Under the pieces are notes generated by a model, which was given only the letters and a program-made list of their open reading frames with translations, was not told the origin of the DNA and did not search any database. Position numbers and translations under genes: made by a program. DNA of 64,000 bases from Isoetes taiwanensis (Eukaryota; Streptophyta; Lycopodiopsida; Isoetales; Isoetaceae): positions 14,115,449 to 14,179,448 of the forward strand of contig JAJEKV010000005.1 of assembly GCA_021234155.1 (NCBI GenBank), given 5' to 3'. Each line of letters opens with the position of its first letter. Within the stretch, counting starts at the first letter, position 1. Shown piece after piece: positions 4,270 through 59,510 of this stretch.

Positions 4270-5010
4270 GCGTGGAACTTAAGAATAGTCATGTGCCTGA
4301 AGGTACAGGACTAACAGCAACACTGCTTCATGAAGTGCCACAAATATCTGGAGCGAAAAGGAAGGATGCCAAAGAGACATTATGTGTTTTTCAGATGACG
4401 CAACATCTCAATTCAAAGCTTCTAGACCATCTTACTTTGTAGGTAGGTACACAAACGACAATGAAGTCTATATGATGTGGAATTTTTTTGGTTCTAACCA
4501 CGGAAAAGGTGAACATGATGGCAAGACTGCTGAGTTGAAGAGATGGTTAAGACAAATGCAATTAAAATACAGCAGCATGAAATTGGGTAATGCTCATGAA
4601 GTGGTAGAAGTTGCTGAAGAGATGTTTACTTGTGGAATATCCGAGTGGATGAACATATTTGAAACCAGCAAGAGGAAAAATATAAAAAGGTTCTTTTGGA
4701 AAGTCAAGGTAGAGGATATAGATAGAAAGAAAGCTTCGGGTATAGAAAGAATTTTGGATACTAGCAAATCCATTGTGTACATGCATTCAATCCTGAATCT
4801 CTATTGCAGTTGCATACGAGGGAACTTTCATGCTTCTGCAGCTATTGCTTGGATGACATGTGGAACAGTTGTGTGAACAAGGACTATGTTGATGATTGGA
4901 AACTTCAAGTTATGGTACCATCCTCCAATGTGCATGCTGACATTGAGGAGGACCGTAAATCTAGCAAGTCCTTGTTCTCCTCCAATTTTGTTATGTTGTT
5001 TAAGGTCCAT
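4270..5010 (+). pseudogene. Transposase-like remnant with SDDATSQFK / HGKGEHDG motifs
   Basis: The plus strand carries SDDATSQFKASRP, then WNFFGSNHGKGEHDG, then a lysine-rich helical stretch and a Cys-rich tail (SCFCSYCLDDMWNSCVNKDY). The same motif pair, an Asp in an 'SD..A.QFK' strand followed by 'F..SHGKG..DG..G..KR', recurs in many uncharacterised animal and plant proteins that I associate with DNA-transposon transposases. The two motifs would supply the later acidic residues of an RNase-H-like triad. The upstream part (ECHKYLERKGRMPKRH-like text) is in another frame, as is the Cys-rich tail, so at least two frame changes interrupt it. The first Asp and the element ends were not found. 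Confidence 0.5.
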
Positions 5011-5029
5011 ACTAGATTAATCTTGTACA

Positions 5030-5240
5030 GACTAGCTAGCTTATTCCACTGCCTTGTGGCAGCCAAAATGGAGGACACGTACATGCTTTTTAAGCTCTAC
5101 CACGTCGGGGATCATCATTGTGTACCCCTAGTAACTAACTCCCAAAGATAAGAGACGTTGGCAAGGTTTGAACCCATGACCATTTGAAAATTTATTTTGG
5201 CATTACTAAGCCTATACCAACTCACCAATTAATCCCACAA
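5030..5240 (-). mobile_element. tRNA-derived SINE candidate
   Basis: On the minus strand, a tRNA-like head begins near 5240. It contains an A-box-like GTGAGTTGGTATAGG and, about 50 bases on, a B-box-like GGGTTCAAACC (complement of 5165-5175). A non-tRNA body follows. This is the usual layout of a Pol III-transcribed SINE. It lies next to a decayed transposase and has no visible function. The 3' end is approximate. Confidence 0.45.
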
Positions 5241-5600
5241 TATTAGCAGAGAGACTTAGAGTTGGTGATAATTTTGCTGTCATTGCTCCGAAAGGCAATG
5301 ATGCGGGTGCTGAATTTTAGATTCTGGTATAGATAGTGGAGAAAGACTTTCAACTCATTGAAACATGGTACCTCGCCGGTGATAATGTCGTAGAAGTATG
5401 TATTACAAGCACCGTGCAAGATCAACCGTCGGCTATGATCTTTGCAGTAAAGACGCTAAGGGCATAGTATTTACAACATAGATCTGTGCAATTAGACTTC
5501 ACATGCCACCAACTAAATGTTAGAACAGGACTATATATAGGCTGGATCCTTCAGATGAGGAGAAAATTTTATAGAAATTACTCGAAGTTCTTTTTGATGA
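5241..5600. other. No gene seen
   Basis: Flank of the large Ty3/gypsy element. It holds only short shadow frames and ends in the target duplication GGATG. Confidence 0.4.
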
Positions 5601-22312: not shown

Positions 22313-25300
22313 TTAACTTGCTAGATTAGGCAAGAATATATTCACTCCTTTCAAGTACCCCTTCACAAATTTGTGCATAAACGAACATAAGACATGGTCA
22401 CAAGAATGACTATCAGTTTGAAGAGGCGTTTTGAAAAATTTCACAACATCTGAGATTGTAAAGCTGAAATTATTGTGTCCAAACAATTCCAGGAACTTGC
22501 ATTCAAAGTTTGTTGTGATTATGTGACAACAGCAAAATGCAATGAACAAGCACTAACCTCTCAATATGTCTGCTTCTGCCATGCAAGTCCATATTATCAA
22601 AGTGATATATTCCTGGTTTATATCTCCGTACGTACCACGGCAAGATTTCCATCAAAAACAACAGTCCAAAGATGTCCATCATAAGCAGAAACAAACATGT
22701 ACTGGCACTTATCCAGATTCACATGTTTCCTTATTGTTTTATAACTATTTGTGTCCTTGGACAATGTCGAGTGAAAAAGAGGATCAAAGAAATGGAAGGG
22801 ATGGCTCATTCCTTGGAGCATCAAGTAATATTCCATGAATCTGCAAACATATGCATATGATGGCACAATCCTAATTATCACAAATCAGAGGAAAGTATCA
22901 CCTTGAGAAAAGGAGGATCAATTGATATCAGCTTCCAAAATTTTGATGTTGGTGGAGCTAATCACGACAGTTTCAGTTCCACTCAGCAACGCTTTCAAAT
23001 GTGTATGTGGCTTTAGATAGACATGGGTTGCCGAAGGTCATCTCTAGTTCTAAACACATATGAGAACATTTGCTCACAATCGATTCAAATATTTTAAATT
23101 GAAAAAGTACAACACATATCATAAAACTTTTTTACTTATATTGACTTTCAAAGAGTTTTACAAGATTCATCTATGAAAATACTTGTCGTGTATTTTCATG
23201 CAGTTGCTCGACTCTTCAGAATCCCACATGTTCCACATTTGATTTTCCTTCACATGAGCAGGCACACTTTCTGAAGTCAGAAGTCCTTCCAGCCATGGTT
23301 TGAGTTGCTCCAAAAGGAAATTGGAATCTAATCTGTCAGGAGCAAAACTATCTGGACATATCATAGTGTTTGGCTGCTTGGCAGAATCCTTATACCTTTG
23401 TGTTGGTGCAATCATCCTGATTCCAAATAAAAAAAAATCTGCCCTTATATTCCTGTAGCAACTTTCTCACCAACAAGTCGACATTAATCTTAGCCATGCT
23501 GGACCACAATGCAATCTCAAATTTTGAAAAACACTATTCTAAGACTCCTATAAACCAGGCCTGAAAACGGCTGCCTTTTGAAGGTTCAATTTCTAGAGGG
23601 TCACTTTTGGCTCGGCCGATGCAGTGATCTTATCTTTCAAGTCATAGAACTTGCCCAAAACCCCATTAAAATCCATGACAAGGAGAATATCAGTTAACCT
23701 CTTGGTTTTTTTTTTTGTTGAGAAGGTATTGGACTTTATGAGCAGGCTGCATCTTGTTCATGATCTGGGGGTTTCTTTGTCAACTTCATCACCTGTATCC
23801 GTCTGTGGCTCATGTTCAGAGCAAAACTTTTGTCTGGTGTAGGATCCCGTGCAGAATGAGTCTCAGGGAAATTAATTTCGCCGTCTAAAACAGATGCATT
23901 GGGAATCTCTTCATGATGGCTCGCAGTAGCATTTATCTCTATGACATAATTGAGATGAGGAAGACCAAAGAAAAATACAAAAAAATAAATCATGTATGTG
24001 GCATTAATACTTACTTGACACGACTGCATTCAGTTCACTATCCAAATTGCATTTTGGATTCTCGCTGATGTCAGCAGCTGGGATTGACTTTGAAGTTTCC
24101 AATGGGGTGAATTCTAGGTGCACCCAGGTGGTATCTTGCAGTCTCATAATTGATCGAGGCATGGATAACTATTGGATATCCTTGGTCTCAAATTTCTCAG
24201 TAGACATGTGACAACATCAGTAAACATTAGTTAAGGTACTTACTTGTGTTTATTGGTTCTTGTGGTACCACTCGAACACCAAAAACCAAAAGCCATGTCT
24301 CCGACATAATGTGGGCACAATTGGGACTACAGCAGGTTCTAGAATGTCTACAAAACAAATCCAATATCAATAAAGCCTGCAAACGAGGTTAGAAATAATA
24401 ATGTTTACCTCAAATGGTATGACAAACATGGAATGCGATACGGATGACTGCATTCTGCTTTCACAACTGGCAACAATTTACCCTTCCATTTTAGACACCA
24501 TCCACAATATGGGCAACCTTCATCACCATCTTCTTCTACCTCAGAAAGCATTGGAAGCGTAGGATCTAAAGGAGTGTCATGGCCACTACGTTCAGAGAAA
24601 ATCTCAAATCTTTGCATTCGAGGTTGCAGCTCCAACAGTAAGGCTTCACATGCCCTTAGCTCAATTTCATTTTTTGCTAGTTCCTTATTCAATTGACTCA
24701 TCCTAGGCAACACTGTACCATTTAACTCTCCATCCTTTAGTTCGCTTACAACCTGAACACCCTCTGCTACTTTCGGGTTTGCCGTCATGATTGACTGCCA
24801 TCTGTGCAAATCAGCTCTAATTTCTGATTGTTTGTGCTTCATCAACTCAATCTTTCATTGCTTGCATCTATCAAACCTAGCTTATGTTGCAGCCAACCAT
24901 TTCTTCACAAGTCTGCCATAGTCTGCAAACAAAATACTCCATATATGTCAGCCTTCTAACATAGTAAGCCACATACTGCTGGACGACAACAATCACACAC
25001 CACACAATACAAGATACTCTTAACACACCACACCAACCAACACAGTACACACCATACAATACACTGCACACACCACATAACATAGGTTGCACTATCACCA
25101 CTATTGACAACACAATAACGTACATCACATCACACACCACACAACACGTTGCATGCACCACACAACATAGGCTGCACTATCACCACTATTGGCGTCACAA
25201 AATCTATACCATACTACACATCACACAACATAGTACAACCCACACAATACACTGCACACACCACACAACATTCACCACTATTGGCAACACAATAACCTAC

Positions 25301-26233
25301 ACCACACAACACAGTACACACCACAGAACACGTTGCATATACCACACAACATAGGCTGCACTATCACCACTATTGGCGGCACAATAACCTACACCATACC
25401 ACACAACAGGTGCATACACTACACAACATAGGTTACACTATCACCAGTATTGGTGGCCCTATAACCTACACCACACCATACTGGTATACCACACCTGACT
25501 TGCTACTACTATCACCCCACATATGCCACGCACCACAATGTGGCAGTACTATTAGCACCATTGGCAGCACAAAATCTCGCTCCACCACGACAAAGATACA
25601 CCACACCACAAATGCTAGTATTATTCTCACCCTAGACTACAAACAACAAGCCAGCAACTCACTATTCACAAGACCACACATACCTCAACTATCATTGTGG
25701 TAGCCATAGCACGAAATGCCTCATATTAGCACAGAACACATGCATAGATGGCATCACAGAGGCACAACATGACAATACAGCCAACATGATGCAAATGGAT
25801 TTGAGGTTACCCTTTTGTGTTGATAGAAACAATCTAGGGTAAGCTTGAGATTCTTTTCTAATGTAATACAACTAATAATTGAACATACCTGCAATGCCAT
25901 ATTTTGGCCTCAAAATATTGCTCTGCTTTTCTATTTTGATTGTGAGTTTAGATTGAATGTGTTTCTTCCCTATCATGGTTTGACTATGTTCTGATTGACA
26001 ATATATCACGATTGTTCTGATTTGGTTTTTTCCCTATCATCTTCATCATCCCTGTCACTTTTACTGTTTTCTTCCTGCTCAGGTTGGATTTGCCTATGCT
26101 TTCTCTTGGGTCTATAAGAACTAGCCTCTACTTTCTCATTGGGAGTTTTGTAATAATCCAAGAAGCTCTTCCAATTAACAGCCTTCCCCTTTATATGTAG
26201 ATAATAAGCCACTAGCCAGGCTCCAGGAGCCAT
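22313..26233 (-). pseudogene. Remnant of a multi-exon gene with a Ulp1-type (C48) cysteine peptidase domain
   Basis: Minus-strand coding-like pieces occur in order. These are 26233-26006 (MAPGAWLVAYYLHIKGK, then an acidic/basic tail), 24845-24405 (a helical coiled-coil-like stretch ending in a Cys pair region CPYCGWCLKWKGK), 24029-23736 in part, 23415-23167, and the peptidase at 22881-22313. The peptidase shows CQYMFVSAYDGHLWTVVF, YHFDNMDLHGRS and TPLQTDSHSCDHVLC. The last holds the candidate catalytic Cys, and GHLW stands where family members have HW. The first two peptidase pieces lie in different frames, and a gt-ag interval near 22559-22500 could be a short intron. Such Ulp1 genes are common cargo of plant DNA transposons. 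No element ends were found. Probably a broken copy. Confidence 0.5.
24940..25640. repeat. AC-rich minisatellite
   Basis: Irregular tandem copies of a unit of roughly 80-95 bases contain ACTATCACCACTATTGGC followed by (CA)-rich text such as CACACCACACAACA. At least five copies of the core are visible (near 25090, 25170, 25265, 25350 and 25431), increasingly diverged to the right. It lies between pieces of the Ulp1-type remnant, probably in an intron. Confidence 0.75.
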
Positions 26234-45240: not shown

Positions 45241-46560
45241 CAATATGAATTTTGGATACAATAAAGAAGGGCTTGGGAGTTTCTACTTTATTATGTTCAC
45301 ACAGTAGGAGAGCTTCAGATTATTGACTACAATAAAGAAGTGATTGGAGTTTTTCAATAGACAGACGGACAGAATATCTAGGAGAGGTTCAGATTATTGA
45401 CTACAATAAAGAAGTGATTGGAGTTTTCCAACAGACAGGCAGGCAGGCAAGCATGTTAATGTCCACAGATATGTAAGCGAGATAATATAATTGAATTGAA
45501 TGGGTTTTTAGCGTCCAAGAACACCAATAGGCCCAAAGAAAGAGCACAATAGATGTACTATTGTCCAGCATGAAAAAAAAAAAAAAACCCCGCCCCAAAG
45601 GATTTTCGAGGGAAGACCTTAGCAAAGCATGCTGATAAAACTGTCAATGTTACATGTCAATGGAGTGTCAAATGACACAACTGAGTGTGCATATCCATCA
45701 CCTCCTGAAGATGTGATCCTAGTATTCCCACTGAATTCATGTGCAACATCACTTTATGTAATTGACATTTATGATATTGTTCGTGATAATGGCTGGTCAT
45801 AGTGATTTCGCATTTATACAAAGGAAATACTACGACTTTGTGATTAGATTAGTTCTTGGCCATGTTGCAAAAGGAAAGAGTGATACTAAAACTGGATTGA
45901 AGGGAGTCATCACTTTGGTGGTCCTATACTTTATTATGTGTGCTCATTGCATTGACCATCAAAGAACATACCTAAATGCCTAACATTTATTTCACCTATA
46001 CATAGTGGTTGAACATTCAAGACATCCAACTAGATCTATACACGGGAATGGGACATCCACACGTGATAATAATACCATGTGAACATCTTAGATCTCAATA
46101 TATGAGGTTTTTCCAAGTTATGAGATCTAGCCACATGATAAACGTTAGGAAAAGTTAAAGAAATGGTATTTTAAAAGTAGTCTTCAATGTTTCAAGTGCC
46201 TATAAATTCAAGTGCTACTAGTACCAGAATGTATATACAGAATAGAATAATGTATTAATATATACTAGAGACCAACTGGCCTATGAAACTCACATAAACC
46301 ACACACTATATAGGTCTGCCCCCATCCTTTCACTTTGCATTGCATTGCATTGCATGATGCCATCATAAGGACTCGAGCCTGATATGGTGTTAGTTAAAGT
46401 GTGAACCAACCAATTGATTCTCAATCACTGGACAAACATGAACAACGACTTGCCATATGATGCCAAAGACTGAAAAATCATCATTTTCACTGATGCAAGT
46501 TTACTATTGAACCACTTACAGAATTTTAGATTATCAAACAATGCTGACAATATATATAAG
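45241..46560 (+). repeat. P450 downstream unit, copy C, cut by the big transposon
   Basis: It aligns with 37380-38670. A P450 relic at 45762-45960 (FAFIQRKYYDFVIRLVLGH) matches the fragment in copy A. The alignment with copy A fades at about 46555, next to the transposon terminal repeat at 46566. Confidence 0.75.
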
Positions 46561-46565
46561 CTCCA

Positions 46566-46586
46566 TTTCATTAAAATGGGACTCAT
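46566..46586 (+). repeat. Left terminal inverted repeat
   Basis: Exact inverse of 58810-58830. Its inner part AAAATGGGA (46573-46581) is followed ten bases later by the complement TCCCATTTT (46592-46600), so the end can also fold on itself. Confidence 0.85.
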
Positions 46587-46741
46587 GCAATTCCCATTTT
46601 ATGACATTACAGACAATGTTTCTATGTTATAGACTATGTTTCTATGTTACTTACATTAAGTCAACTTAACGTTCATTACAATTTACACCATAAACATAAC
46701 ATAACAAAAACAATCTTGTTTAATAAGAAACAATGCTATGA

Positions 46742-46764
46742 AAATGCCCCTAATAGGGGCATTT
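46742..46764. repeat. Subterminal 23-base palindrome
   Basis: AAATGCCCCTA and TAGGGGCATTT are perfect complements around a single A. TTAGGGGTAT repeats follow nearby (near 46785 and 46812). Subterminal repeats of this kind often bind transposase. Confidence 0.6.
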
Positions 46765-46914
46765 CATGAATTTTCTAAACATTAGGGGTATGTTGTGAAT
46801 TTCGCAAAAAGTTAGGGGTATATTGTAGTTTTTCCCTTAAAAGTAATTGCTACAAAATAACTTTGCTTTCAATAAATTTATAATGAAACAATACATTTAA
46901 ATACATATCTGAAG

Positions 46915-47640
46915 TTATACACCAAGAAAAAGCTTGTCCAAAGCTTTCGTAACATTTGCATTTAGCTTGTCAATTTGTTTGAATTGAGGATGCTTGTCAA
47001 TTATTGGAGCAACCGCTCCACATTCCTCAAGTTCCATAAGAAAAGGGACAATATCACTGAAAAAGTAATCATCTGTCTCATATTCTTCAGGATAATATGA
47101 CTTGACAAATATGCTATTTCTTGTGTTCATATAGCACTTATAAGGACTAGCATCTAACATAATGGTATTGCCTTCATGGTACTTTCCTCCAAAATGTTGG
47201 TATACTGATTCCAATTTTTAAGAAAAATTGGTTTTCCTTCGATACATCACTTGGTAGATCTCATCACACACATACAATCATTTTGAGACCAAGTGAAAGA
47301 AAATTTATGGACATGTTGTTTCAAACCCATATCCTTAAGTGTAGTCTTAATTCTCTTGTATGTTGTCAGAGACCAAATAGCCACATCAAACCTTTCAAGG
47401 CGTAAGCCAATAAACTCTTGTACGCTGGGCCTAGGATAGATGTATTTCACGCCGAAAATGATAGGCTTCCTCGCAATGTCCTTATGGTGGAAGCCCTTTG
47501 CTTAGTTACTACGTGGATGCTAAAACACCACTGATATCCAAAATAAGTAATTTCCTTGGCCTATTATTCAATGAGCGCATTAATTGCCTATCCAGGTTCA
47601 AAGTTGACCGATAACACATCTTCCTCTCGGGGGGGCCACA
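46915..47640 (-). pseudogene. FCP1/NIF-like HAD phosphatase domain carried by the transposon
   Basis: Minus-strand pieces in order are RKLLILDISGVLAST (about 47560-47515; the HAD motif I position, but with D-x-S instead of D-x-D), then IYPRPSVQEFIGLRLERFD and VAIWSLTTYKRIK (47460-47247), then GNTIMLDASPYKCYMN and DDYFFSDIVPFLMELEE (47214-46915). This is the layout of the FCP1/SCP-type domain ('RP...EFL...ERFEVAVWSS...', 'NTLLLDDSPYK'). A stop follows the first piece and a frame change separates the last two. Altered motif I suggests lost phosphatase activity. It could be a separate gene or the 3' part of a longer one; the start was not found. Confidence 0.65.
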
Positions 47641-47951
47641 ACATGACTCGATGTCTTGGTACCGCTTAACATGCAAATCATCGTGTCCGGGAAATTCAAA
47701 ACATCAAAACACATTAAGAGAATAGATGAATATAATGTTTTCCATCAAAATGAAAGACATGCTTCAAACATTATAGACAAATGTCCGAAAAGTACGCGTT
47801 AGGTGAAGAAGACAACCTCCTCTCGCTCCATAGGTTCTTCATGGGGCTTATGTTCCTAAGGGTTGAACATCATCTTCATTCTCATTTGTATTACTTACTG
47901 ATTGCTCATTCTCATTATCACCCCCAGATGGCTACACTATGCTCAGAGTTA

Positions 47952-50900
47952 TTACTGTATGATTTTCTTCCTCCCATCATCATGTGAAACCTCTCGTACT
48001 TTATTCTTTGCTGCCTTTGCAAAATATTCTACGGAATCAAAGTATTTCTGGCAGAACTCTTCCATAAAAGTAGATCTAACAATGGAGACTACCTTTTTTC
48101 CAAAACACAACGCACCTTGTCCAAATGTTCCATGCATGTACCACTCGCAAACCATAGAATTCTCCTCAATGCAAAATGAACTAATCAAATATTTGACAAC
48201 TCTAGATCTTATATGTTTCTTTGAAACTGCACCTTCTCCAAGACACACATTATCTAGCGTGGGATTCTCTTCCATAAAGGGTACGTCTTTCAAATCTGGC
48301 AGATTATCTTGAACTCTCATAAGTAATTGCTGAAACTTAAAGCTATGTGGCCAACAAGTAATAGCAGGTGTCTCATTTTTGCTAATCATTACCGTGACCA
48401 CAATACTAAAAGGAGCCGTAGCAGGTACTCTTTCAGCAGATTGTTCAGAATGTTCATAAAAGCCATATATCACCTTTTTTTCACCCACGATGCCCTCAGC
48501 ACTTTGAATAACATTTGCAGACTGAATACCCAGTCTAACAAAAATAACAATGGTATACTTATCGAGTGTTGTCATCTGCCTGCAATTTTTCCAAAATTGT
48601 TGGAGATCATGGTCATCAAAATGATCCATGTCTTCCTCCATCAAATTCAAGACAAAAAGACTTATTGGGGCATTCGTCAAGGCATCTCCACAATATCCCT
48701 TACTGCCTATGCTGATCAAATAGCTCTTCTCATTTGTGACTGGGTCAAACTTGACAACAGGAAAACCTAAGCGTTCCTTCAAGAAGTCTTTCACTCGCAC
48801 TGGAAGATCTATAGTCTTAACATTCTTCCTTGTTGCACTATCTAAGTACTGTGAGCTCCACACCAAGAGATTTTTCATATCGCCATCAGTAATATTACAT
48901 TTCTGCTTGAAAAACTCATAGTCACCTCTATGAATGGAAATATCAGTGCAAAATTTTACAATCCCATCTTCCATGGCCCTTGCTAACTTCAATTGTTTTG
49001 CATACTCCTTCACATCCTTCATCCCTAAAGTTGTTTTGTCCACACTAGAAGGCTTGCCTTTTCCAAGTGCTTTACTAGACTGCTTTTCAGAGTAAAACTT
49101 CACCATTTAATATTTTTTGACTGATCTCTAACATGTCCTTCATGCCAAGCCCCTTGAAATGGTCGCATGTAAAGTACCTACAAAATATCAGTGCCGGGCT
49201 TGCAGGAGGCTTCCCTTTGGAGTCAAGAAGTTTCAAACCCTTCCAAGCTTCCCATATTCGTGTCCAATTTTCCCAAACTTGGTCAGGACACATTATCAGG
49301 TCATAGTGCTCGGTCATTCTTGGAAGTGATTTTGAAGATCCATCAGACTGTTTTGGCTTCTCTATAATAGTGTATTTACAGAAGTCTTCAAATCTCTAAG
49401 CATATAAAAATAAAATAAGTGAATTCTATGAACAACCATGCCATCATTCAAAGCTATGATTTTGATTCTACATGTAAATACCTGCCAAACTGTGTCCTTG
49501 GAGCTGCACGTCACTGGCCTTGGTGGCCTACCTAATGCTATCCATTGAGCCCTTGCATGGGAAACTTGGTCTGTATAAGGGCTGTAACATTAAATGTAAG
49601 CAATTAGCAAGAAAAGAGATGCACTACATATAGAATTCTGCTAAGATACAAAATAATCAACAGCGCACATATCTGACTTACTGACATTCGTCTGAAACTA
49701 GTAAAGCTATAGAACTACCTATGTATTTGAAAGATGATTGGTAACATTGAACATTCTATATAAAAGCCATCTTCCATAAATTAGTCTGTAAGTAATGTCA
49801 TGTCTAGATGCGCATCAAAACCCCTACATAAAATCAGACATTAAATTGCTTTTCTTCTTTTTAGACTGATGCTTGAAACTACAACTTCAAATTAAACTAA
49901 ACGTTAATTACAGACATATGTCTGAAAGACTACCATTGAGCTAGCATCATCAAACAATCATGAAAAAGACATACCTTTCATACTTGAAAAGCTCGTTTAT
50001 GCTATTTTGCGCATGACTTATCATTGATAGTTGAATATCTGGAGTGTCGCCATGCAAAACTCTACACATTCTTTTTTTATGTAATACAGAGAGCTCTGGA
50101 GGTAAAGTATTATTAGCTATAATTTCTTGAGCCGCTCGTACTGAGTGTTGCCCCTCAATTACATAAAATTTCACATTTGGATCATTTAAATCCTGTATGT
50201 TTTTCCATTTCAGAGGTTCTCCTGTTCGTGCATCAAATGGTAGCACATCTGCTGGAGATGGATTTCTACAAGGTAACTTTAGCATACTGTTATAGATGCT
50301 TTTCATGTGTCCATCATTATAAACCCTATGATTGTATAATACTGCTTTGCCAGTGCATAAAACCAATCTGCTGATATCTATATTAACGGTATGCTGCAAG
50401 CCCAAAGGATAGTATCTCTGAAAGCTCTCCATCCGCTTTGTACTTTCTTGCACAATTTTCGCTTGCTCCTCAGGACTGAATCTATAAGTAGACCTCCCTT
50501 CCCCTTCTTTACCAATACCCTCATCAACACAATCTTCCACGATGATGTCTACATCAACATTAGCTCCTGCCTTTGTATTTTCACTGCCCTCTTTAAGCGC
50601 TGCTCTAGGAGAGTGAACCATGGCATTGAATTTTGCATTTTTCAATATTGAAGATGCATAAGTACCTTTATTGAATAATTGTTCTCTAACACGTGAAATT
50701 GCCTTTCCAAGATCATTTGAAGACAAAAGACCTGCTAATCCTTTTGCAGTTGAATCTTCAACATTCCATCCAAGGGATAAACACGTCATTCCTTCACCTT
50801 TTAATTTCTTCTCCATTGAATTAAAGCTATACTCTTTGACAAATAACGGATCAGTTTGCATTGCTTTTCTTAACCTACATTCCTCCACAATCAAAATAAT

Positions 50901-51387
50901 ACTATCATCTGTAGGACACATCACAGAGATGACTACTCCAAATCTTTTAAACTTTGCCATGCTTGATTCTTTGTAAAAGAAACCCAAATCGACATTTTTT
51001 CCTGACTTACACACTTCTACATACCATTTTGAACATGCTGGGATATTCAATGTTTCAATGCCATTAACCTCAACTTGAAATAACGGACTCTTGCTTTTTA
51101 TGATATATTCTGTTTTCTGAGTTTTCTGAGAGCCTGCAACTAAAAGACAACTACTTACTAAACAAACACACTTATGAAAGAAAAAAAAACAAAGAAAATA
51201 TCACTAACCTTTTGTTGTTCGAGGTCTTTTGCACGGTCGAACATCCACATCTGGAGGAGCAATACATAAGGGAGTGACGTCCACATTTGGAGGAGCAGTA
51301 CATAGGGGAGTGACGTCCATTGTAGTTGGCCGCAAATTGCTTGGAGTTGATGCGTCTTTTCGTGCTGGTAACGCCAATGCTAATGCA
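47952..51387 (-). CDS. ParB-like domain fused to a beta-class DNA methyltransferase fold
   Basis: Four exons fit on the minus strand with agreeing phases: 51387-51209, 51139-49975, 49581-49482 and 49395-47952. Exon 1 has a duplicated motif (VDVTPLC.APP) and a basic KRPRTTK, a possible nuclear signal. Exon 2 ends in a ParB/sulfiredoxin-like domain with FYVIEGQHSVRAAQEI. Exon 4 holds a methyltransferase fold in beta-class order. The motif IV position (GDALTNAPISLFVL) has NAPI where DPPY is expected. Then come FWKNCRQMTT and YTIVIFV, and near the end motif I as VCEWYMHGTFGQGALCFG. ParB-methyltransferase fusions are known from phages and bacteria; here the gene has introns. A one-base frame offset lies near 49110, and the 5' exon with the start codon was not found. 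Probably DNA-binding and catalytically weak or dead. Confidence 0.68.
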
Positions 51388-51612
51388 CTATAGAATTAAA
51401 AAGATTGATTAGTTAATCTTGTCAAGAACTTCTAAAATTTCCTTGTAATCATTAACTAAGATTTCGAATTTAAATTTTGAAATTCAGTTGCCCGCTCATT
51501 TTAATTTAACTTTTATGGAAGACACATCTTGATGTAATTTTCTTGTCTAATATTGATGCTAAGCGGAAGAAGAGCATTAAGCGCCCATTCACTCTACAAT
51601 CAATTCCAAAAG
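51388..51612. promoter_or_regulatory. Shared divergent promoter region
   Basis: The minus-strand ParB-methyltransferase gene and the plus-strand transposase gene point away from this AT-rich gap of about 225 bases. It must hold the promoters or first exons of both. No clear TATA box was singled out. Confidence 0.45.
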
Positions 51613-54600
51613 ATGAGCGATTTTCATGGCGATTCCGAGGATTTTGATAGCGCTCACGTAGACGCTCACACAGGTTAGTCTTACTCTTGAATTTTTGACA
51701 GATCATGGCGAATTAAACATATTAAATTATATCTCTCGCTTAAAAACAGATAAAGTTTCAAAATGTGCGCATTTTGATAAGAATGGAGATGAAGCAGCAA
51801 CTCCCAATTCTAATGGTAAGCAAACGGCAAACTTTATGGTTATGGCTATACAGTTACTTATTTTATTGGGATGATGCCATAGAAGTGGCAATTCTTTTGG
51901 ACGGAAACACTATTGGAGCTGGTATTTTGCTACCACTGAGTGCTTCAATTCACTGTCAACAAATGGAAACTGGATGGGTCAAAATTGCAGTGACAAAGGC
52001 GTTTATGCCAGACGTGTCTCTTCTCAAAATTACTCCAGATGCAAATACCTTGGGAGAAGCCATTGGTTCTATCATACAATGGCCGGAAAAGGGAATCCGC
52101 AATTGCTCTCAGGTAGCACTCATATCTTTATTCTATTTTTCTCTGCATGTCTCATGATGAAGATGAATAGTCTAAATAGGGTATAAGGTACAAATAAAGG
52201 CTGCATTTCTCATGATGCTTCCAACTTGTGTCTGTAAGCAATTATCCTTTGTGCTACAACTGCCTAACTATTATAGACAAGGGCTAGAAGCAATTATTAG
52301 AATGCAACTTTCTTAGAGCATAAAGATGCAGCCATGTAGAGCAGGCTTACAGACTTGTGTCTGTAAGCAATTATCCTTTGTGCTACAAAAGCCTAAATAT
52401 TATAGACAAGGGCTAGAAGCAATTATTAGAATGCAACTTTCTTAGAGCATAAAGATGCAGCCATGTAGGGCAGGCTTACAGACTTGTGTCTGTAAGCAAT
52501 TATCCTTTGTGCTACAAAAGCCTAACTATTATAGACAAGGGCTAGAAGCAATTATTAGAATGCAACTTTCTTAGTGTGTAAAGATGCAGCCATGTAGGGC
52601 AGGCTTACAGACTTGTGTCTGTAAGCAATTATCCTTTGTGCTACAACTGCCTAACTATTATAGACAAGAGCTAGAAGCAATTATTAGAATGCAACTTTCT
52701 TAGAGCATAAAGATGCAGCCATGTAGGGCAGGCTTACAGACTTGTGTCTGTAAGCAATTATCCTTTGTGCTACAACTGCTTAACTACTATAGACATGGGC
52801 TAGAAGCAATTATTAGAATGCAACTTTCTTAGAGCATAAAGATGCAGCCATGTAGAGCAGGCTTACAGACTTGTGTCTGTAAGCAATTATCCTTTGTGCT
52901 ACAAAAGCCTAACTATTATAGACAAGGGCTAGAAGCAATTATTAGAATGCAACTTTCTTAGTGTGTAAAGATGCAGCCATGTAGGGCAGGCTTACAGACT
53001 TGTGTCTGTAAGCAATTATCCTTTGTGCTACAACTGCCTAACTATTATAGACAAGAGCTAGAAGCAATTATTAGAATGCAACTTTCTTAGAGCATAAAGA
53101 TGCAGCCATGTAGGGCAGGCTTACAGACTTGTGTCTGTAAGCAATTATCCTTTGTGCTACAACTGCTTAACTGGCTAGAAGCAATTATTAGAATGCAACT
53201 TTCTTAGAGCATAAAGATGCAGCCATGTAGAGCAGGCTTACAGACTTGTGTCTGTAAGCAATTATCCTTTGTGCTACAAAAGCCTAACTATTATAGACAA
53301 GGGCTAGAAGCAATTATTAGAATGCAACTTTCTTAGAGCATAAAGATGCAGCCATGTAGGACAGGCTTACAGACTTGTGTCTGTAAGCAACTATCCTTTG
53401 TGCTACAACTGCCTAACTATTATAGACAAGGGCTAGAAGCAATTATTGGAACTTTCTTAGAGCATAAAGATGCAGCCATGTAGGGCAGGCTTACAGACTT
53501 GTGTCTGTAAGCAATTATCCTTTGTGCTACAACTGCCTAACTATTGTAGACAAGGGCTAGAAGCAATTATTGGAATGCTTGCTAAGAGAAGTAAGATCAT
53601 TACAGACAAGTGTGAAAAATTTGCAGCCAAAATTGCTAAGAGGCATATAGAGGTCTATGAGATCTGTAAGCAGGCATTTACATGGAGTCTCTCAGCACTT
53701 ATGGACGTTTTCTCTAGAACTGCTACCTTCCATCGAAAATTATATTCTTAGGATTACAAGCAAATATCTGAAAGTATATGTCCTTGTTTCATGCAGAAAC
53801 AATGCCCATGCCAGATTGATGTGCAAAATCAGCCTTATAGATCAAACCTCACTGCATGATGGATTTGCCTTTGCCTGTATAATCATTCTTACCTGATTTA
53901 TGTATAAATTCTGCAAGACACTGGCCAGCATTTCACCTCTGATGTCAGCAGCATTTTTTACCTAAGGTTTCATTGCCAACTACATAGCTTAAAATGCTTA
54001 TGTGGATATCTGCAATTATTGATTCTCAAAAATGATCTGAAACTAATGATGATAAGACATTCACAAAACTAAGAAATCTGATACAGCAGTCATATTTGAG
54101 ACTTCATTGCTCCAACAATTGCCTACCATGGATTGTTTCTTTCTTTAGTTCTCTCTTATAATCATGAGACAAATTGCCCTTGCAAAGAAACCTTGCATTG
54201 CAGATCCATGAAATAAACAAAAAAAAACAGGATAATACGATTCCGGAAAACTATCTTGATCTTTAAGTTATTTTCTACGTAAAATACCTGGATTGGATGT
54301 CGGATTGGATGTCGTTGCCAGAAATCGCATCCAGGTCCATTTTGCCGCTTCGAAGCTCCAGAGCCGTTTACGAAATGATGCAGATTGGCGGCAACTACTA
54401 TTTCTGCCATAATTACTCGTTACCAATTTAGTTACTACTAGTAAACGGGTGCCCGGCGTTGCCGGGCATAAGTAGCAGCGCGTATTTCTATAGAGCTTCA
54501 ATGTAAAATTGATCTTTTATAGGAGTTACAACAATTCTTGACTTAAATATCAGTACATTCAGACACCAACACATACCCCCAATACATATTACAATATCTT

Positions 54601-57600
54601 CAACACATATTACATCACAATATCTTCAACACATATTACATCGTAGATGGGAGGGATATAGCAATTATGACAAAGTTTGAAGGGAAAAAGGTGGATGCTA
54701 AATCCGTGTATGATACAGAAGTGACTAAACATGAGGCAAGTATAGAAAAATGCTAACACATTTTTGTAAAAAGATCAGTCCATAACATTAAACACCATCA
54801 ACTTTGAAAATCACAATACAGTTGATCATATCATTAATTTTAACTGCCCTAGATGCAAAATTGTTGTATCCATCAGAATACTTAAAAAGGATCATGCATA
54901 GATTAGTTCTTTTATTTCTTAGTACCATTCCATTTCATGTGATTCTTCTAGTGCTCGCACTGGCAATCCATATAAGCCCTAGTAATGTATATTGACAATT
55001 GATGTCATTACGTCTTCTTATTTCTTATGTGTTCCCGCGTTGGGAAAAAACCATACCTTTTGTCTTTTGCAAACATAGTTTTGGCCTTTTGCAAATCGTG
55101 CTCCCGCAATGAGAAAATAAAAACATACATTTTGCCTTTTGCAAACATACTTTTGCACATCATGCTCCCGCAATGAGAAAAATAAAAGCATACCTTTTGC
55201 CTTTTGCACACCGTGGAAGGTGGAAGGTAATATGCAACATAAATATCTTCTTAATGTTTGCAAGATGTACTTTCTTTTTTATTGGCATCTTAACAACTCA
55301 AAGCTTATTTGCAAGGTCCCTAAAGACATGTACTTTTCTTTCTTATTCGCATCTTAACAACTCAAAGCTTATTTGCAAGGTTCCTAGAGACACGTGAATC
55401 AATTACATTCATAAACATCACTTCCATTATATTACAAAGGTATCTTATGCAAAAACTTATTGATACCAATCTCAACTTATGGGCCAAGTACGCATTTATT
55501 TTTAGAGCCTAGATATTAATACCCTTTAACAACTAAGTCAACATGTCTATTAGTGGAAGTGACAAATAGCCTAGGTTTATATTAACGCTATAAGGTAATA
55601 TATGTGTATATATATCGAAATCTATAGTAATTACGATTCAACTATATAATTTATCTCTTATATCTATAATTTTTATTATATTAATATTTTTCTTCTTCAT
55701 CTTAGCAGGTTATTGTCGAAGAAAAAAATGGATTGTTTAGTGGTGATCAAAGTCGATTGATATGGAGGCGAATGAAGTGTAAAATCATACATCCTTGCAC
55801 AAATGAGACATATGCACTTGGGATCATAATATCCATTGATCCATCAGACTCTGTAAATGACGAGTATTTGGGTGATGATCATATTGGTGTGGGAGTAGAT
55901 GAAATTCTTCCAAACAACACAATCATTCTCCCATATGCCTCTTCTTCATGTATCATGTGCTCGGGTCGAGTTGAGAGATTAATCTGGCTTAGATGGCCAA
56001 TACGGCATCTTAGAACATTGAATGGTGATGAACTTATACCTATTAAGGACAAGAGAGGATGTGAGCCTGAAGTTGAGTTTCATGATGAAGTTAGTAAAGA
56101 TCATGTATTATCTATTCGAAAACGCAGGTATAATTTCTACATTCGCAAGCCGGCAAAGAAGCAAAAGTTAAGTGGCAAAAGAAAGACAAAGAAATATAGG
56201 GAACCTACAATTGCAAATATGGAGAGAGTGAGAGGAAGACCATGTTGTAGCTTGTGGTGTACAACGAAGTATTCAATAAAAGAGCTACAGAATGTTAGGA
56301 TGCAACATTGGGGAGTAAAGCAGTCTGACAGATTGAATACAGTGTATTCTACATTTGGGTCCTCGCATTATGATAAAGATACTGGAATTCTAATATTTCA
56401 GTTGCGTGGTAATTGGGTATGCACCAAAGCACTAATATGGATAACCGGTATGGGGAAGACATCATTCTATCGATATTGGGAAAAGTATCAAGCAGGGGCT
56501 CGAATTGCATCTCATGGTAATACAGGTAGTTTGAAGACACGTGACAACACACTAATGGCCATATCAGTGTTTGAGAATTTTGTAAGATACATGTCACAAT
56601 CAATGCCACATAAAAGTAAAGTAAACAAGGATGGTGTGAGAGAGGTAATGCGAGTATTACCTCATCAATATATCTGAAAAAGAATGTCTTGTTGAAGTAA
56701 ATTCAGTACTCGAGGGTATTGGAGGTCGTCCCCTTTCCCAAAGTTGTTTTAGTAGACTATGGTCAAAGCATTTCAGTGATGTTGTAGTGGCACAGAGCAT
56801 GCCATTCTCCAAATGTAACATTTGTATTGAGTTACGAGATGCGCTAACCTCTACAATTATAGAGAGCCAGAGAATGCGCATAAGACAACAGATAGCAGAC
56901 CATCATAATGAGCAAAAAGTCGTGTAGATCTCTATATTGGCAATGGCGTACATTTTCTTCCATGCAACCAGACAAGTATCTATGCATCATACATGATAAG
57001 ATGGACCAACATAAAACATTTCTTCCTAGATTGGAACCAATCCCCAAAAGTTGTGGAAATGCACACCAACTGAAGGTGTCATTAGCAGGAATGTTAACAC
57101 ATGGTCATGGTGCTGGAACATATGGGCATTTTACATTGGAGCTCTGGGAAGATGGACCTAATTTCCATGTTGGATCTCTCTTCAAATGTCTAAGGAACAT
57201 TGAACGTGGAACTGACAGCACTTCCATCAAAGATAGGTCAAGTGAACTACTTGAAGCTTTGATGGATAGAAATGCATTTGAGGCTCATAAAAAAGAGATT
57301 GCTTCTAGATCTTCCCATATCACAGAGAAGACATGGATAGCTCAACCATTGCAGTCTAAGAAGTTACCACCTGAGTTATACCTCCAACTAGATAATTGCT
57401 TCAAAGAGAACAAGAACAGGTGGATGTTTCAAGCTTGTTCATACCTAACAGCAATGGGTGTATTTCAGTGTGTGAAGGTAGGCTTCATGATGGTTGGACA
57501 TACACATGATGATATCGATGCATTTTTTGGTAACTTTTCAAGTCGGTTGAGAAGGGAATCAGTCGCCACTTTGCCAGAGTTGATGGACATATTTGAGAAC

Positions 57601-58578
57601 ACTATCTCACCTTCACCAGTTGCATTTTTAATAGATGAAGTACCTGATTGGAAAGGTTTTGTGGACGGGTACATGATTGATGGTAAACAGACACTCACTG
57701 GGCATTCTAAACCACTACAGTTCAAGTTCTCTGTGAGGGATGTTCGGCCATCAGATCAGTCATGGGAACCAATTCATGGTATAGAAATGTGGAAGAAAGA
57801 TGAACAAGGGCGACCTATCCTTCCTCCAGGTCAACCGAAGCCTATGGCACCATTTGAGTCAGTAAAGGATGCTAAGGAATTGCAAAAAGGTATACAATCA
57901 TATATAGTACATTGGAAACGTATGCAAGAGCGAGATAACATGTCTGAAATGAAAAGAAGATCATTGTCTACCTTGATTGCATATTGGGAGAATATAGCTA
58001 GTAAACTCACAAAGACTTCAAGTGAGGTTTCTACTTTGATGGATGGTTTTCTACCCTCGAGTAGGTGGAAAGATTCCCTAGACCCCCAAATTGGAGGTCC
58101 AGGTGGAAGACTACTAAATAATGAAAATTGGTATGTTGGCAATAAAAGTGCACGACCAAGATGGCATGGCCTACCAGAATGGACACCTTTTGATGATATC
58201 CACAAGGGTTGCTTTGTGCTTGTTAGGCCTGATCAAGAGATCTACCCAGTTTGGCTAGGACAAGCACTAACTGACCCATGTACTAATGTGGATAGCAATG
58301 AACGCCCATGGTTCATGATTCAGTATTGGGCGCCAGTGAGCAAGAAGAAAAGTTTGGATGATAAGGAGTTGTATAAGGATTGTTGGAACAAGCGATGGCG
58401 TATGAATCCCTCTGATGCACCTAGACGGGAGATAGTAGATTGTGTGGTATGGTCTTATCCAAACCCTCATGATCGTAACATTTCAAACAAGAGGGATATA
58501 AGGTCGATTACACATAAGATACCAAAAAAGGAAATGCAGAAGGCACTATGCAACTTGAATATGCATGGCACATCATAG
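51613..58578 (+). CDS. Transposase-like protein with DUF8039-like and DUF7869-like regions
   Basis: Exons fit as 51613-51673, 51750-51815, 51883-52112 and 55709-58578, with phases 1, 1 and 0 agreeing at each join. The start MSDFHGDSEDFDSAHVD is acidic. Exon 3 (LGEAIGSIIQWPEKG) and the start of exon 4 (NNTIILPYASS) resemble the DUF8039 region of plant transposon proteins. Further on come a Cys-containing region (FSKCNIC) and the core (56908-58578). The core has candidate acidic residues in HDKMDQHK, LQLDNCFKENK and VGHTHDDIDAFF, an RNase-H-like triad as in proteins I recall as DUF7869. Single-base frame offsets lie near 56670 and 56915 (in a run of A). No classical superfamily can be named with confidence. 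Likely the mobilising enzyme, acting in the nucleus on the element ends. Confidence 0.68.
52226..53580 (+). repeat. 129-bp tandem array with a three-unit higher-order period
   Basis: About ten and a half copies. The landmark TAAAGATGCAGCCATG falls at 52321, 52450, 52579, 52708, 52837, 52966, 53095, 53212, 53341 and 53465, so the period is 129 except for one unit of 117 and one of 124. Variant markers (TAGAGC/AAAAGCC, GACAAGAG, CTGCTTAAC) repeat every three units, a 387-base period. Each unit holds the hairpin GCTTACAGAC-TTGT-GTCTGTAAGC. The array lies in the long intron of the transposase gene. Confidence 0.92.
53581..54430. other. Intron sequence after the array
   Basis: The last array unit runs into an open frame to 53751 (MLAKRSKIITDKCEKFAAK), possibly the source sequence from which the array grew. 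The minus-strand text near 54410-54270 (AEIVVAANLHHFVNGSG) is coding-like but unrecognised. No supported gene. Confidence 0.3.
54437..54468 (-). mobile_element. Possible Helitron 3' end
   Basis: On the minus strand a perfect GC-rich hairpin (TGCCCGGC, loop AAC, GCCGGGCA; complement of 54450-54468) is followed eight bases later by CTAG and then T. A short hairpin before CTRR inserted at a T is the Helitron 3' signature. The matching 5' TC end, expected at higher coordinates, was not identified. Confidence 0.4.
55016..55215. repeat. Short tandem repeat in the transposase intron
   Basis: Two to three diverged units of about 65-75 bases contain GCTCCCGCAATGAGAAAA and TACCTTTTGCCTTTTGCA. Confidence 0.6.
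55255..55395. repeat. Tandem duplication of about 64 bases
   Basis: GCATCTTAACAACTCAAAGC through TTATTTGCAAGG occurs twice, near 55287 and 55349, just before the acceptor of the long intron. Confidence 0.65.
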
Positions 58579-58809
58579 GATATCAAACAATTATTTTTTG
58601 TACTTCTCATGTGTATTGAATGGCGTCATGTTATTAACATAAGTAATATAGAAACTTAAAATGTAGAGCCGCCATTGTGGGCTCTTGCACTCTAATGCAA
58701 AGATGTTAGTTATTATGTTACTTCACATGTACTATGTACCTTTTTGCCAATCAAATTGACAGATGGGTTAATGTGATATGTAAGAGTGTTTGTTTTCCCA
58801 AATTGATGA

Positions 58810-58830
58810 ATGAGTCCCATTTTAATGAAA
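58810..58830 (-). repeat. Right terminal inverted repeat
   Basis: Reads ATGAGTCCCATTTTAATGAA plus one A on the plus strand, the exact inverse of 46566-46586. Confidence 0.85.
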
Positions 58831-59049: not shown

Positions 59050-59510
59050 TCACAATAATTCTTCACGAAAGTGACTCAAATTTGATCTCCTAATACGTTT
59101 TTGCATCTCCAATCTAATGGAAGAGGCATTAGATTTTATGAAGCCATTTGTGAGATATAAGCTTTTCCCTTATAGATGCACGGAAATCGTTTTTAGCTTT
59201 TTTCACTATCAATCCTCTATGAAATGATCTGAAAACTTGACCTCAAAAGACGTTTTTGCATCATGAATCCAATGGAAACAGGCGGCATCAAATTCGTATT
59301 GTAGTTTGTAAGATATTAGGCTTTTACGGTAAAATATCAGAAATCGTTTTTTGGCCTCTTACTTGGTGAAAATACTCAATGGATTTACGCGAAACTTGGT
59401 GTCCTAGAACGTTTTGTACTCACGAATCCATAGGCCAGCGGCAATCCATTTAGTCAAGTAGTTTATGAGATATTGGCTTCTACTCTATGGCAACCTTGAT
59501 GAATTTTTTC
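59050..59510. repeat. Three diverged tandem units of about 160 bases
   Basis: Each unit has ACGTTTTTGCAT-like text, then AATCCAATGGAA-like text, then GTTTGTGAGATAT...GGCTTTT and GAAATCGTTTTT. Copies begin near 59090, 59250 and 59410. Confidence 0.55.

Follow-up and report, generated by a model that had tools for sequence, protein, structure and literature searches.

A worn copy of a large DNA transposon family in Isoetes taiwanensis: divergent transposase and putatively ParB-like cargo genes, with palindromes suggestive of own-site binding

The DNA considered here, 'the window', is a stretch of 64,000 nucleotides (nt) of Isoetes taiwanensis (assembly GCA_021234155.1, contig JAJEKV010000005.1, forward strand, positions 14,115,449 to 14,179,448), within which all coordinates below are counted. 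From 46558 to 58830 it holds a worn and degraded, frameshifted copy of a large multi-gene DNA transposon family. In this copy, W below, a cargo gene on the minus strand and a spliced transposase gene on the plus strand diverge from each other between terminal inverted repeats. An earlier note, made from the letters alone, had described perfect 21-base inverted repeats at the ends, and this is borne out: the repeats found in W, 46566–46589 and 58807–58830, are 24 nt long, 96% complementary and 12,217 nt apart, and their outermost 21 bases match perfectly. The full terminal repeat, as read from two close sister copies, B and C, is 32 nt long and starts at 46558 (AAGCTCCATTTCATTAAAATGGGACTCATGCA), its left and right versions being identical at 31 of 32 positions in B and likewise in C. 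W has all of it on the left (46558..46589, plus strand), and comparison with B and C shows that its right end (58807..58830, minus strand) is short by the last 8 nt, which is why its target duplication is unreadable (the flanks are ATAT and AACC).

What else in the genome has such ends? The genome searched comprises 1,658,258,908 bases in 1,110 contigs, with the window on that called C1056. When 235 bases of the left end were used as query, the best 40 of 195 candidates were scored and gave 46 match rows; the matches listed are W itself, three long ones (about 160 bases at 84–88%), others that are shorter, and many that cover no more than a small inserted piece. Among six loci compared (A–F), B and C align over nearly the whole element, both ends included, and A, D, E and F do so partially. 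The identity of B and C to W is mostly 84–99% at the DNA level, with one 79-base repeat piece at 76%, and the extra length of B (14,629 bases) and C (17,196) relative to W (12,273) lies in alignment gaps resembling insertions. Two further copies are G, a locus on C1030 (L031 and L032) of which only the right end was identified, and H, of a distant family on C1065, whose ends, AAGCATTATTTCGTTAATTTGAGA and AAGCACTATTTCATTAATTTGAGA, are akin to those of W. All three copies with both ends identified have 4-bp target duplications, GGAT in B, CCAT in C and ATTA in H. The earlier note had named beforehand, as its test, the existence of further copies that have both ends and share the gene set; B, C and the diverged H are such copies, and they have target duplications, for which it had also asked. 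As to separate matters of copy history, some 93 bases of W (46744-46837) interrupt its alignment to B and C, and query bases 174–235 (46739–46800) alone match 33 other places, plus five in opposite sense beside them, among the matches listed; this piece was probably a later insertion, of a small hairpin element. Copies D and E (L015–L018, at ~11.50 and ~11.53 Mb of C1056) share 40 bases just outside their left ends, and that identity suggests segmental duplication of a single insertion.

The cargo gene, read leftwards, consists of a ParB-like exon (49974..51140, with GQHSVRAA and HAQN motifs), a small exon, ex3 (49488..49589), conserved in G, in H and in three diverged loci, L043–L045, which were picked by their match to the ParB-like exon, a middle part (47952..49395, with one frameshift near 49100) and a NIF/FCP1-like part of the HAD type (46915..47703, in three frames in W). 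An uncertain first exon may lie, by inspection, at 51208..51395, also on the minus strand. The HAD exons probably form part of the cargo gene, to judge from their constant place. The FCP1-like call made from the letters alone was right: the Pfam NIF profile matches one W exon at E 1.2e-5 and 25.5 bits, above its curated cut-off of 21.8, and another at 17.2 bits, and in B the part is one uninterrupted open reading frame (ORF) of 259 amino acids (aa) that scores E 8.6e-14 and 52 bits. The catalytic motif of the NIF/FCP1 phosphatase fold is DxDx(T/V). At that nucleophile position the elements have LDISG (W, B and C), LDCNG (H and L045) or FDVNG (L043 and L044), so that the first aspartate is kept and the second replaced.

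The middle part is what had earlier been called a methyltransferase. For N4/N6 DNA methyltransferases a DPPY-type catalytic motif and an FxGxG-type cofactor motif are expected. Inspection of four aligned members found no [DNS]PP[YFW] (H has TPPG) and recognised no FxGxG-type motif, and no methyltransferase profile in any library searched matched, the nearest library match being the N-terminal restriction-enzyme domain MmeI_N (E 0.16, one of three members). The sequence CEWYM is, nonetheless, present in all four aligned members and in L043 and L045. Since both profile match and DPPY-type motif are missing, the part is not classed as a methyltransferase; that it is a degenerate one is a guess.

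The right-hand gene was earlier described as divergent, spliced and transposase-like, correctly so, as it encodes DUF7869 (Pfam E 4.3e-44). Its N-terminal exon (51861..52112, plus strand, as are the others), conserved in G (70%) and H (39%), resembles proteins bearing PF26133, which we take to be DUF8039: in a blastp comparison against five homologues only, P0004, which bears PF26133, matched at E 1.3e-6 (41% over 44 aa) and P0003 at E 0.004, and Pfam itself gave no match to the N-terminal transposase ORF of W. There follow, beyond a large intron, an exon for the N-terminal half (55706..56927, with a frameshift near 56678) and the C-terminal half with DUF7869 (56896..58578), which has HDKMDQ, LDNC..ENKNR and GHTHDDID. 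B is open across the stretch that is frameshifted in W, then has one stop, and the transposase gene of W is therefore broken. Long open frames survive elsewhere, 934 aa in the close relative G, where the frame starts after a shift near the beginning of the transposase exon, and 983 aa in the distant relative H. The five homologues, from a large protein database, are 33–40% identical; DUF7869 is present in every one of them and PF26133 in two. HDKMDQ is in all seven aligned rows, LDNC in six (B has LNNC, with N for D) and GHTH[DE]D[IV]D in six (P0006 diverges). By inspection, a DDD/E triad is suggested by the blocks HDKMDQ, LDNC..ENKNR and GHTHEDID; searches of solved structures gave no credible match.

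Do these genes travel together? They do, as one mobile unit, as the earlier note had supposed: B, C and H have the same joined layout. H holds every module of W in the same order and orientation at amino-acid identities of 36% for the cargo, 56% for the DUF7869 half of the transposase and 39% for the exon before it. G lacks the HAD part, and its middle part is without the end, but all else is there, and L043–L045, all three, have ParB-like exon, ex3, middle part and HAD part in order. Where the HAD part is missing in G, a 342-aa ORF beyond the cargo (~4500–5530 in coordinates of G, minus strand) resembles, by inspection, retrotransposon gag. Genome-wide, a search with the ParB-like exon (best 106 of 4,141 candidates scored, 109 match rows) and one for the transposase (best 78 of 15,379, 92 match rows) left, when second fragments of the same places were dropped, 103 and 78 places respectively. 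Eighteen of the 103, W, B and G among them, lie within 20 kb of a listed DUF7869 place, where ~0.19 would be expected at random; within 30 kb there are 20, and 19 of these pairs are divergent. The other 83 have no DUF7869 partner within 30 kb among the matches listed, a count from capped lists that tells little about the number of ParB-like exons without transposase, though there may be some.

The two genes also appear to have been kept by selection to a similar degree. The ratios of nonsynonymous to synonymous substitution (dN/dS, by NG86) for W against G are 0.131 for the ParB-like exon (384 codons), 0.092 for the middle part (313) and 0.079 for the transposase (554). The ParB-like exon of W gives 0.140, 0.144 and 0.146 against L037, L039 and L040, its middle part 0.055 against L037 (146 codons), and its transposase 0.092 and 0.082 against L026 and L028. 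In these comparisons the cargo thus spans 0.055–0.146 and the transposase 0.079–0.092, the cargo ratios being rough because cargo dS is 1.3–2.9. Between families, to judge from these figures, purifying selection on the cargo nearly matches that on the transposase, and the cargo is therefore not a random passenger. W against H gives 0.204, 0.229 and 0.099 for ParB-like exon, middle part and transposase, at a saturated dS of >3, and W against B 0.201, 0.271 and 0.368. Closer pairs have ratios of 0.189 for L037/G, 0.29–0.35 for L043/L044, 0.447 for L037/L040 and 0.68–0.77 for L045/H, as expected of decaying copies. A further feature of the W/G pair is that synonymous divergence is ~1.4 in the cargo and 0.44 in the transposase; because of this difference it seems that the histories of the two halves are not the same, as if there had been an exchange of halves between families.

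Inside the elements, short palindromes recur. The pattern RGACNNNNGTCY occurs 12 times in W, 9 in B, 5 in C, 8 in G (counted from its first readable cargo part) and 7 in H, whole elements otherwise being counted, where 0.22–0.38 would be expected, as judged by 50 random sequences that follow the same dinucleotide chain; in six control stretches the counts are 0, 0, 0, 1, 0 and 2. Ten of the 12 in W are in a tandem array (52217..53578, plus strand) of 10.7 copies of a 129-nt unit, which contains TTACAGACttgtGTCTGTAA, within the large transposase intron. Two further sites of the palindrome type, for which strand is immaterial, are TTATAGACAAATGTCCGAAA at 47771..47790 and TTACAGACATATGTCTGAAA at 49908..49927. 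In W, G and H, the three copies for which coding stretches were listed by hand, each of the 27 sites falls outside those stretches. Six loci around related ParB-like exons have 30 sites in 24,174 bases (7, 5, 8, 1, 6 and 3), five loci around transposase ORFs have 0, 1, 0, 1 and 1, and the three diverged cargo loci L043–L045 have none. Instead L043 and L044, which are of one family, have a different palindrome, TCTCGACTCGCGAGTCGAGA, with 7 and 9 similar members respectively; TTNCRGACNNNTGTCYGNAA and TCTCGACTCGCGAGTCGAGA are the candidate words of the two element families. When the largest palindrome family was sought with no pattern prescribed, the sizes were 11 in W, 7 in B, 1 in C, 7 in G, 2 in H, 7 in L043, 9 in L044 and 1 in L045, with 7, 6 and 6 in L037, L039 and L041, three of the six loci around ParB-like exons; ten controls gave at most 2, and eight of the 11 element regions exceed every control. 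This enrichment suggests a DNA-binding protein with its own candidate sites.

Which protein might that be? The N-terminal region of the cargo is a candidate, and here the ParB half of the 'ParB-methyltransferase fusion' proposed earlier stands weakly, whereas its methyltransferase half found no library match. PHROG 1033, which is ParB-like, was the top PHROG match twice, at E 0.022 and, in four of five members of the domain alignment, at E 0.0069; ParB-like identity is, on these profile scores, weakly supported. The cargo had also been thought 'phage-like', and the searches made gave no support for a phage origin. A scan of viral contigs for cargo relatives found none, one tblastn search of phages had no match, and another gave 24 records, 23 of them Bacillus phages, at E 3e-3 or worse, the 10 listed matches falling in tail, tail-fibre, hypothetical or unannotated stretches. 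Such an origin was rejected, since viral, phage and plasmid sequences gave nothing usable.

There is a published precedent for the arrangement, so that the earlier impression that no comparable family is known is wrong beyond plants. Sola1-1_Ec32 of the brown alga Ectocarpus, as presented in the main text of PMC12477816, is a 21.5-kb Sola-1 transposon with a ParB and DNA-methyltransferase gene of 1104 aa opposite its transposase; its authors suggest that proteins of this kind may attach to the transposon that encodes them and alter it epigenetically, and cite transposons of green and red algae as having similar accessory proteins (PMC12477816). The element here is likewise a large DNA transposon in which a ParB-like accessory gene and the transposase gene are on opposite strands, its cargo being ~950 aa long before the HAD part. 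For the green and red algal cases the sources cited there are Iyer et al. 2011 and Petroll et al. 2025. By its 4-bp duplications and terminal inverted repeats the element behaves like those of the Sola type, and it is set beside Sola-1 by features and not by transposase sequence. The Sola2-Fanzor elements of social amoebae, as far as the text of PMC3627910 describes them, similarly have short terminal repeats, 4-bp target duplications and an extra gene, which is, however, Fanzor1 and so unlike the cargo here (PMC3627910). In the passages of PMC12477816 on Sola1-1_Ec32 a phosphatase part goes unmentioned, and 'palindrom' does not occur in its main text, whereas here there are both a phosphatase-like part and palindromes; the methyltransferase, described there, is unrecognisable here, the two proteins being compared by description and not by sequence. 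Known already, then, is the ParB-like accessory gene opposite a transposase, and apparently new, in so far as those passages do not mention them, are the phosphatase-like part, the unreadable methyltransferase motifs and the family-specific palindromes. The titles and abstract openings listed from the openly licensed literature include no other DNA transposon with ParB and methyltransferase beyond Sola1-1_Ec32, and nothing on DUF7869.

The reading that we consider somewhat likely to be right is of a cut-and-paste transposon with two divergent genes, whose co-inherited and selected cargo encodes a protein that binds the palindromes of its own element. The DUF7869 transposase would cut and paste by a DDD/E mechanism, and the cargo protein would bind the palindromes via its ParB-like region, as ParB binds parS. 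Such binding would benefit the element, most likely because it counters silencing at the two divergent genes or because it draws the ends together. The middle part would no longer methylate DNA, as the usual catalytic and cofactor motifs are unrecognisable, CEWYM nonetheless being kept. In bacterial and phage ParB–parS systems, too, a ParB-like region goes with a short palindrome repeated near the gene; unlike there, the similarity here is weak, the palindrome has another sequence, and the gene bears introns and is in a large genome. The VANDAL elements of Arabidopsis, which encode the anti-silencing protein VANC, provide another likeness, an element-encoded protein other than the transposase that acts on short motifs repeated within its own family, though the transposase group is unrelated, and protein and motif are not known to be related. 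A more specific version, tentative and possible rather than probable, is of a eukaryotic transposon system in which a ParB-like protein, with its own parS-like palindromes that differ by family, would load on element DNA so as to protect, fold or pair it; an eroded methyltransferase and a pseudo-phosphatase would be its building blocks.

Several results weigh against this reading of the cargo as a palindrome-binding protein. In another PHROG scan, PHROG 13000 (E 0.044) and 35186 (0.065) outrank PHROG 1033 (0.084, two of three members); Pfam offered DUF6371 (E 0.019) and DUF6551 (E 0.12) for the ParB-like region, each in two of five members, and NCBIfam a protoporphyrinogen oxidase for the cargo (E 0.043, one of three members). 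No ParB family matched in Pfam, NCBIfam or solved structures, and the ParB-like support is at best E 0.0069, none of these library scores being significant given the searches made. A solved-structure library and a database of 5.8 billion proteins returned nothing significant for the cargo, whether single sequence or alignment was used, and AlphaFold models from single W sequences, with mean confidence (pLDDT) of 37.2 and 33.8, were useless. As to the palindromes, those of W are not independent of each other, with 10 of 12 in one tandem array, and C, H and L045 do not rise above the best control in the pattern-free test, C and H having one and two good palindromes.

Perhaps the palindromes are bound instead by the N-terminal part of the transposase and the cargo has another role, an alternative that is doubtful but deserves to be taken seriously. 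Subterminal repeats are bound by transposases in other families, and W has 2.2 copies of a subterminal 20-nt repeat (46607..46650, plus strand), in which half-site-like words lie, as counted from the left end, at offsets 49 (TTACAGACA) and 69 (TTATAGACT). The word at offset 49 is shared, with one mismatch allowed, by the left ends of W and H, which may be chance, but near their right ends no word of comparable strength was found, and the sites of W, G and H are in or between the genes. The family with the other palindrome, L043/L044, also diverges in the cargo (ParB-like exon ~40% identity); this difference, seen in the cargo alone, does not separate binding by cargo from binding by transposase.

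Could the middle part work as an active N4/N6 DNA methyltransferase and mark the element in the way suggested for Sola1-1_Ec32? Gene position and ParB-like N-terminus are as in the published gene, as outlined in PMC12477816, constraint on the middle part is strong, and a strand region and a motif with glycine follow each other, by inspection, in an order similar to that in such enzymes. The missing profile match and the absence of the catalytic motif from all four aligned members nevertheless make this unlikely. Quite unlikely is that the cargo is a passive passenger, made of captured gene pieces without benefit to the element: transposons commonly capture pieces of their host, and the ratio of the recent pair L045/H, 0.68–0.77, shows that individual copies do decay, but the low cargo ratios between families, next to those of the transposase, and the identical four-part layout in W, H and L043–L045 speak otherwise. 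That two unrelated mobile elements happen to be neighbours, flanked by repeats that arose by chance, has only the composite look of the window in its favour and is ruled out by B, C and H with their same joined layout and end type. The element shows that an accessory gene of the ParB-like kind described for algal transposons can be an old, selected part of a transposon family, with a phosphatase-like part and candidate binding sites, and the palindromes make its role testable in vitro, by binding to its own sites and preference for those of its family.

Two features of the window outside the element may be added. Shortly beyond its right end, at 59078–59436, a 45-base repeat occurs in three spaced copies (64–100% to the reference copy). 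Far to the left, 25001–26000 has a strong GC skew of -0.416, with CACACC-rich tandem repeats at 25029–25478.

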